Of a DNA stretch of 64,000 bases, positions 14,042-34,868 are shown piece after piece. The position numbers were made by a program, and so were the translations under genes. The DNA comes from Eubacteriales bacterium (GTDB lineage Bacteria; Bacillota; Clostridia; Lachnospirales; Lachnospiraceae), in assembly GCA_030524745.1 (NCBI GenBank), contig JAUNGC010000016.1:1-64000 (forward strand), written 5' to 3'. Positions within the stretch are counted from its first letter, which is position 1; each line of letters begins with the position of its first letter. A model generated the notes under the pieces. The model saw only the letters and a list, made by a program, of their open reading frames with translations, ran no database searches and was not told where the DNA came from.

Positions 14042-15356
14042 TCAAATGACCGACACCTGATATTTGTCCAGCATTTCCTGTAAAACCGCAGGATCACGCT
14101 GCATCAGCGGAATTTTGTCCGCCTCTCCTGCCAGCACCATCCTGCTTGTCAGAATCAGCATCATATCTTTTCCCTGGCCCCAACCTTCTTCTCTGCCCTC
14201 TTCTCTACTGTCTTTCACCAGTTCTTCCAGCGCAGTACACATATTGTATCCTCCCGTATCATTCTGATAATGTCCGCGTTTCATGACGTCCAGACACTTT
14301 ACTCCCAAAAACGCCGACAATAAATCGCAGCACGCATCATCAAGGTTACTGTAACGTCGCTCATTCTCTCTGATATATTCATACAGTTTTCGTTTGCTTC
14401 CCGCGTATGGAAGCAATTCAAATAACTGTCTTAAGCCGGTTTTAAAATGATTCGGATTCACACTTTTCCATTCAATCAAGTCACCCTCAGTGTACAAGGG
14501 GACACGCGCCCCGAACCGTGATATTTGCCCGATTTTCCTCGTTGTCCTCAATCGGCGTGCGGTCCAGCACGCCTCATTCGTCCGCCTTGAAAATCGGGCA
14601 AATCTCTACGGTCGGGGTCGTAGAGTCGGAAAGGGACGAATTTGGTCATCTGCAAGGCACCTGAACGACGCGTGCAGAGACGCACGCGGAGTGAAGGTAA
14701 CGAAGCAGATGACCAAATTCGCCCTTATCCGACCGTGTGTCCCCTTGTACACTGAGGGTGATTTTGAAGTCCGGGCAAAACTCCTTTAATTCCTCCAGCC
14801 CCGGAGGAAACTCAATTAACTCATGCAGTCTGGTAGGCCCTTCCCATGGCTTCTCTCCATGATAAAATACAATGCAGCAGACAGGAGATAAACGATCTTG
14901 CCTTGTCATGCCGCTTAAAAACTCAGCGCTGCTTTTTAACTCCATTCGTTTTTTATGCGCTTTACGGATCCTAACCGCCTGCTGGTCGTAAAGCAGCGCA
15001 GTGACAAGCATGTCCCGAAGAGGCATGATATAGCTGTCATCATGCTGATTTTCCAGGGAGATCAAAATAAATCGTTCCTTTTCATCGTACTGAAACATCC
15101 CGTCTGACGTTCGTTCCTTTTTCTTTTCGCCGCCGCTGCCATTCTGATAAACAACAGCCGCCGTTTCGGGAAGCCTTTTCATTTTTGCGGGATCTAATAC
15201 CTGCTTTCCACGAAGAAGCCCTCCGTTTACAAGATCACAGACATGCACAGGATCCACAATGCATGCCTTTCCTTTCGGGTCAGTGATACCCAAGATATGC
15301 CTCCTTTTCAGATGTTTCCGCAGCATCAGACACTTTTTCAGCTTGCCTTGAATCAC
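14042..15356 (-). pseudogene. Rpn-type PD-(D/E)XK nuclease/transposase-related gene split by an insertion
   Basis: Two fragments belong to one gene. The 5' part (15356 down to about 14759) carries family text such as 'RLSPVCCIVFYHGEKPWEGPTRLHEL' and 'EELKEFCPDFKI'. The 3' part (from 14481 down to 14042) continues with 'LIEWKSVNPNHFKTGLRQLFELLPYAG' and an Arg/Glu-rich tail. These match Rpn (recombination-promoting nuclease) proteins frequent in Lachnospiraceae. Removing 14482-14758 (277 bp) restores the frame and gives 'CPDFKINLIEWKSV', as expected for the family. The gene is therefore interrupted by the structured element. The GTG at 15356 is weak, and the true N-terminus may be a later ATG or be missing. 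Confidence 0.8.
14481..14761. mobile_element. structured MITE-like element with 25-bp perfect terminal inverted repeats
   Basis: The ends are exact inverted repeats: 14481-14505 and 14737-14761, beginning CCCTCAGTGTACAAGGGG inside TCA/TGA. The interior holds three hairpins. Hairpin A has 15-bp arms at 14523-14537 and 14589-14603 around GGCGTGC/GCACGCC. A short hairpin CTCTACG/CGTAGAG spans 14604-14625. Hairpin B has 16-bp arms at 14638-14653 and 14705-14720 around CGCGTGC/GCACGCG. No protein is encoded. It splits the Rpn-type gene, and the restored reading frame suggests no target duplication longer than one or two bases. Shortened relatives occur at 34835-34868 and possibly 43667-43707 and 63027-63045. 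Confidence 0.85.
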
Positions 15357-34834: not shown

Positions 34835-34868
34835 ATACCCTCAGTGTACAAGGGGACACTGAGGGTAT
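34835..34868. repeat. collapsed copy of the structured element
   Basis: A perfect 13-bp inverted repeat, ATACCCTCAGTGT / ACACTGAGGGTAT, has the 8-nt loop ACAAGGGG. It equals the left end of the element at 14481 joined directly to the last bases of its right end, as expected after deletion between two ACAC words. It sits 15 bp before the CcdA-TlpA start, so it forms a hairpin near the ribosome site or ends the HxlR transcript. Confidence 0.8.

Follow-up and report, generated by a model that had tools for sequence, protein, structure and literature searches.

Bacterial MITEs are usually pictured as two ends with disposable filler between them. By layout, the kinds nearest to the element analyzed here are RUP with IS630-Spn1, Correia/NEMIS, and BOX, each of which was set beside it by way of its available description. 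For RUP, the repeat unit of pneumococcus, IS630-Spn1 is the proposed helper in the available accounts (PMC2229807, PMC3049150). The present element interrupts a gene in a window of 64,000 nucleotides, the whole stretch of DNA that was analyzed, from a Lachnospiraceae genome (contig JAUNGC010000016.1). It is very probably a non-autonomous TA-target element, broadly speaking a bacterial MITE, that would be moved in trans by a DDE transposase, most likely of the IS630/Tc1 type, that carries two inverted cores, and that decays by internal deletion. The features referred to below are as follows.

14042..14483, minus strand: C-terminal part of the interrupted gene, assigned by paralogue alignment; alone it has no Pfam match
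14481..14505, plus strand: left terminal inverted repeat, 25 bp exact, flanking TCA included
14482..14483, no strand: CA, the dinucleotide next to the element on its left; TA in most full copies
14484..14758, no strand: element proper, 275 bp, CCCTCAG ... CTGAGGG
14520..14608, plus strand: arm 1, conserved hairpin core, 85.1 bits with covariance model R1, this arm being one of the 23 used to build the model
14609..14633, no strand: central spacer between the arms, containing GAG (CTC on the other strand)
14634..14722, minus strand: arm 2, the conserved hairpin core again but inverted, 87.4 bits with R1 and likewise one of the 23 arms
14737..14761, minus strand: right terminal inverted repeat, 25 bp exact
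14759..14760, no strand: TG, the dinucleotide next to the element on its right; TA in most full copies
14759..15356, minus strand: N-terminal part of the interrupted PF04754 (Rpn/YhgA-like) gene, assigned by Pfam match and by the paralogue G000:C41; start putative
34836..34867, no strand: collapsed remnant of the same family, a TA-flanked palindrome of two overlapping terminal repeats with the interior lost

The original prediction was that a structured non-coding element splits an Rpn-type gene, and that cutting out 277 bp (14482-14758) restores a family-like reading frame. The N-terminal piece of the gene matches PF04754 (Transposase_31, YhgA-like), which we take to be Rpn, at 6.1e-05; its second Pfam match, to EAD7, is under the cut-off of that model, and NCBIfam gave no match for either piece. 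The same genome contains a paralogue (G000:C41) that can be aligned across the insertion with one gap of exactly 277 bp; in frame, it reads KINL at the insertion site, which bears out the predicted restoration. A second alignment of this paralogue sets 279 bases against 2 at the insertion place. The insertion looks recent because both gene pieces are still open up to it, and the proposal of a precise and recent event is further upheld by the exact gap in the paralogue, by the other copies, and by an orthologous empty site for a sister copy.

The 25-bp exact terminal inverted repeats were present as predicted, at 14481-14505 and 14737-14761, and reach 31 nt at 94% identity if extended. DNA folding of 14470-14770 gave -110.8 kcal/mol against -43.8 (sd 3.97) for shuffled sequences (z = -16.88), with none of 100 shuffles equally good. 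Three internal hairpins had been proposed; the strong structure was found, but the layout is better read as two arms and an outer stem, the long internal arms spanning 14509-14617 and 14614-14744, each with its own apical hairpin. The interior consists of two inverted copies of an 88-nt hairpin core, and the CTC of the spacer between them is invariant in the aligned copies (16/16). The element had also been described as free of open reading frames. A mechanical list does contain a 99-aa GTG frame (14490-14789) that crosses it; this frame is not gene-like and is no evidence of a gene. The lack of a transposase gene stands, no gene-like frame being found inside.

The predicted further copies exist both in the genome of the window and in those of related gut bacteria, among them genomes named as Lachnospiraceae or Blautia. 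A second full copy, 97% identical, lies at C30 of the same genome, which holds several fragments or partial copies besides the two full ones. One decayed single arm without recognizable ends (L003, G000:C59:40291-40387) lies upstream of a frame that, judged by eye, resembles a zinc-ribbon protein. A search with the whole element matched 5 of 98 genomes, the window's own included. The end pattern, allowing up to two mismatches, occurred at 14 to 34 sites per genome in each of four genomes, compared with 0 to 2 sites for reversed-pattern controls. The exact 20-base end pattern was found in 40 stretches from named genomes: 22 carry the names Blautia or Lachnospiraceae, 10 are Candidatus Faecaligallichristensenella or Pullichristensenella, and 8 have less precise names. 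The end sequence of the window copy is rare, since a search of 397 genomes from the window's family found its strict form in only 5, the window's own among them. At the level of plasmid and phage collections, blastn at E 1e-5 returned no match to the element. One viral contig (L152) matches an end sequence, and with no partner end in its 2169 bases this match was treated as chance; two exact core patterns, which overlook variants, occurred in no viral contig.

Nineteen full copies from nine genomes had 20 or more flanking bases; their lengths are 271-275 bp and their ends read CCCTCAGTGTACAAGGGG or GCGTCAGTGTACAGGGGG, with variants. The counts leave out the full-looking copy L136, which lies too close to a contig end, and all copies truncated at such ends. 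Elements often lie at contig ends of draft genomes (for example L133, L134, and G176:C29 and C30), as would be expected if near-identical copies collapse in assembly, and true copy numbers are probably higher than counted. The arm sequences of the 19 copies diverge strongly between groups, yet length is constant. This constant length, together with the conserved core, suggests that the interior matters.

TA flanks 16 of the 19 full copies on both sides and two on one side; the only copy with neither is that of the window, flanked instead by CA (left) and TG (right). The insertion behavior of the family could be read from one orthologous pair with flanks 95 and 98% identical, in which the filled site (G396) reads TTGC-TA-[element]-TA-ACATTTC and the empty site (G040) reads TTGC-TA-ACATTTC. 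Judged from this comparison, the family can insert precisely at TA, duplicating it. This was the one orthologous empty site examined, and it belongs to a sister copy; the empty site of the window copy is paralogous. The filled-and-empty comparison proposed earlier thus yielded a precise empty site with one TA. 'Little or no target duplication' had been expected, and little is nearly right: most full copies show a 2-bp TA duplication, the two bases being altered in the window copy. The window site may originally have had TA, or else CA, the pair that the paralogue shows. The complementary CA and TG now present might reflect a hairpin-templated change. The short form L057 likewise shows CA to its left and TG to its right instead of TA, and in both cases the complementary pair could come from template switching in the hairpin.

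These observations bear on whether the element is mobile at all. That it is a host regulatory or structural repeat of the REP/BIME type is highly improbable. Such a repeat would be in keeping with the strong hairpins and with the 24 of 33 related cores examined that have no reading frame of at least 80 aa across them, but a REP or BIME is a short extragenic palindrome and not a terminal-repeat insertion at a target site. The window element lies inside the gene that it interrupts, its relatives have TA-flanked terminal repeats, and precise empty sites are found, all of which contradict a REP/BIME-like origin.

A candidate mover was sought among proteins matching PF13358. Hits were found in 2/4, 3/20, 9/20, and 6/17 genomes of four overlapping sets and not in the window's own genome. 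Three loci of the 17-genome set are the same as loci of the 9/20 set, and 21 distinct loci were fetched. The pair of ends of the element (TACCCTCAGTGTACAAGGGG or TAGCGTCAGTGTACAGGGGG) occurred at none of the 21, and a single loose match to an end was seen at L110, L269, L274, and L277. A transposase bounded by the same ends, which the original prediction had suggested looking for, was therefore not found in the one family searched. The partner, probably of IS630 type, may have been lost, may be absent from genomes that are partly incomplete, or may belong to another family.

The same core also occurs singly, in TA elements of approximately 158-174 bp with different ends. Among 57 distinct single-core places examined, the span was 158-174 bp in 41, of which 31 had a clear score; TA was near both ends in 29 of these and near one end in the other two. 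The end search gave no convincing ends around some cores (for example L195, L203, L204, L214, L218, L226, and L237), and clear ends were missing for about half of the cores found class-wide. Ends of single-core relatives were compared with IS630-type ends, meaning those of elements with a PF13358 transposase, for which clear inverted ends were seen at only part of the loci. Based upon this comparison, 18 of 26 end sets beat shuffled sequences at p<0.05, a value that is uncorrected and takes the better of two ends. The best matches were 19/20 for L193, 18/20 for L182, L192, and L236, and 17/20 for L189, all of them to IS630-type insertion sequences from other genomes of the family. Only L202 was best matched within its own genome (G168), at 16/20. 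L187 of G172 is closer to an insertion sequence of G015 than to that of its own genome, and the single-core element of G015 itself (L210) has no clear IS630-like ends. In G040, L037 and the local insertion sequence agree at ten or eleven of their first eleven bases. The ends of L217 and L190 were out of register with TA in the comparison, so that their poor match is uninformative. The end of the window copy matched IS630-type ends at 7/20 and its G015 variant at 9/20, no better than shuffled sequences. Core-bearing elements with dissimilar ends occur in other families (L255, L257, L261, and L262). The core crosses end families, either because the ends have diverged or because interiors have been exchanged. 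Two single-core elements are nested: L190 (G252:C27) is enclosed by outer perfect inverted repeats of 18 and 14 bases, and around L202 (G168:C22) there is a further inverted repeat of greater length (33 nt, span 370).

Mobilization in trans by a TA-specific transposase, as the original prediction had it, is well supported by the copies, by the orthologous empty site, and by sisters with the same core and IS630-like ends. The alternative offered there, replication of a hairpin, found no support; the TA ends and the precise empty site fit ordinary DDE transposition. An element of the same kind could be moved by a TA-specific transposase from outside the IS630 family, for example an IS5/IS427-like enzyme, a type that targets TA or TNA. 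This is possible, though doubtful: the lack of any IS630-type locus with the window's end pair among the 21, and core-bearing elements with ends unlike IS630-type ones (L255, L261, and L262), speak for it, but IS630-like ends occur in most of the single-core relatives compared (18/26 end sets), PF13358 being the sole family searched. On the preferred reading, the mover would be a DDE transposase supplied in trans, with IS630/Tc1 as its likeliest type; it would recognize the terminal repeats, excise the element, and join it to a TA, giving the 2-bp duplication. Later internal deletion would remove one or both arms and leave palindromic scars of about 44 bp. We infer both the cut-and-paste step itself and the transposase type for the window's end sequence.

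Shorter forms with the element's ends are of the kind that such deletion would leave. There are 34 palindromic forms of 41-66 bp and four of middle size, one of which (L183) is a single-core element with a window-type end and not a remnant. TA flanks the 34 short forms on both sides in 17, on one side in 11, and on neither in 6. For 31 of the 38 shorter forms (L032, L059, L085, L093, L108, L164, and L183 being left out), the sequence was compared as an internal deletion with a full copy from the same genome or from a near genome assigned by hand. Thirty junctions were scored: microhomology was at least 2 bases in 12, of which 7 had 6 or 7 bases, one base in 6, and absent in 12, and random cuts gave at least 2 bases in 15%. 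One form, L079, fits internal deletion poorly (46/66). Judged by their sequences, the 41-66-bp palindromes look like internal-deletion remnants of the full element, and mini forms may in addition be independently mobile units. The remnant at 34836-34867 of the window, the most collapsed one found, lies a few bases before an ATG. Short scars of this type hint at how large palindromic inserts decay.

The core itself was followed with covariance model R1. At a threshold of E 0.001 or better, with E-values that are rough, 32 of the 200 genomes searched from the window's family and 21 of the 293 from its class had a match, the window's own genome being included in both. An alignment of 106 matches (100 distinct) was assembled from 84 sources chosen as carriers. 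In this alignment, which was fitted to the tested structure and so favors it, 89.0% of cells were paired, against 60.4% after shuffling and 35-40% when the register was slid. Its covariation score was 0.629 against 0.152, with none of 500 shuffles as high. When the 23 arms were aligned independently, both partners had changed in 20 of the 25 pairs predicted. Covariation of the core is strong.

Conservation extends to the loops. Among the 100 distinct arms, GCCTTG was exact in 77 and YGTT was present in 88, and opposed TC/TC was seen at two loop places, in 75 arms at one and in 86 at the other. When the arms are grouped into 44 clusters with less than 80% identity, these four features occur in 30, 36, 31, and 35 of them, respectively. 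Read on the other, purine-rich strand, TC/TC becomes tandem G.A pairs, which are stable. The third loop place was either fully paired or had outer pairs with T.C/C.T inside in 68 of the 100 arms (G.T allowed), against a mean of 13 and a maximum of 24 in shuffled controls, and in 29 of the 44 clusters against a mean of 4.7 and a maximum of 11. An exchange of tandem G.A for Watson-Crick pairs is what one would expect of a purine strand that folds on its own, as single-stranded RNA or DNA. Computed folding energies are similar for both strands of the core. A.C mismatches outnumber G.U by 153 to 65 in the 100 distinct arms, 61 to 34 in 44 clusters, and 29 to 21 in 27 clusters, three pairs carrying 29 of the 61; as strand evidence this excess is weak, and it points to the purine strand. 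Taken from these patterns, the core appears to have been selected as a single-stranded fold, of RNA or single-stranded DNA, on the purine-rich strand. Kink-turn, hammerhead, and attC readings of the loop were set aside for misfit of layout. A role of the core in the mRNA of neighboring genes was also rejected: the purine strand lay in the direction of transcription at 5 of 15 co-directional sites (27 sites classed from 33 loci), showing no orientation bias in a small sample obtained with a rough gene caller.

The palindromic arms could alternatively owe their form to mutation bias alone, a hairpin-templated correction of quasi-palindromes acting on a fold without function. Template switching can perfect palindromes, the CA and TG flanks of the window copy are complementary as such correction would leave them, and the neighboring genes show no orientation bias (the same 5/15 sites). 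This explanation is nevertheless unlikely, as it accounts neither for the conserved unpaired letters (GCCTTG and YGTT in the proportions given above) nor for the alternation of Watson-Crick pairs with T.C/C.T along the loop helix in 68/100 arms against a shuffled mean of 13. For the selected fold, we put forward tentatively, as a proposal with somewhat less than even support, that the core is what lasts, a structured nucleic acid that is specific to one strand, contains three tandem G.A modules, is kept class-wide in Clostridia, and has been carried by several unrelated sets of transposon ends either singly or as an inverted pair with one folded core per strand. It would then be portable cargo that aids the element and not filler; recruitment of a host factor, or of a transposase in single-stranded form, is one way in which it might do so.

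Terminal inverted repeats, a TA duplication with an empty site (in the sister copy), multiple copies, and the lack of a transposase gene together place the family among MITEs. With respect to an IS630-derived MITE, the TA target is seen for the family and is not visible in the window copy, and shared ends are seen for several single-core relatives and not for the end of the window copy. The original prediction recognized no named IS, REP, or MITE family, and the blastn, Rfam, and literature searches are consistent with this. The sole Rfam match for 14300-14900 was MIR840, at 23.4 bits against a gathering threshold of 150, and the sole match for six relatives was cspA in L239 (positions 1-210, outside the core), at 28.9 bits against 78. 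A literature search covering titles and abstract openings, most subscription papers lying outside its reach, turned up no description recognized as the core or the element.

A core with the hallmarks of a selected fold, namely covarying stems, loop letters, and the G.A exchange, occurs inside differently ended elements in many families. The recurrence of one folded core in mobile elements with different ends suggests that the fold itself does something. Whether a MITE interior is functional thereby becomes testable, with a defined motif for finding binding partners or transcripts.

With IS630-family insertion sequences, the element shares TA ends, and in its best-matching sister elements 16-19 of the first 20 bases agree; it differs in having no transposase gene, and the ends of the window copy match none of those found. 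Correia/NEMIS elements are similar in their TA ends, terminal repeats, and strong folding, and differ, compared by description, in being about 107 and 155 bp long and belonging to Neisseria, as given in the portion of the source available (PMC2229807). BOX elements of S. pneumoniae, also compared by description, form a single family in the available accounts, in contrast to the core described here, which crosses end families. RUP is likewise short and transposase-less, with TA ends and terminal repeats resembling those of IS630 type (PMC2229807, PMC3049150, as far as these accounts were available). It is 107 bp long, AT-rich, and found in streptococci, a comparison made by description and not by sequence. 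Unlike RUP as so described, the core reported here is common to elements with different ends across many families of Clostridia, and in the window it takes a double, inverted form.
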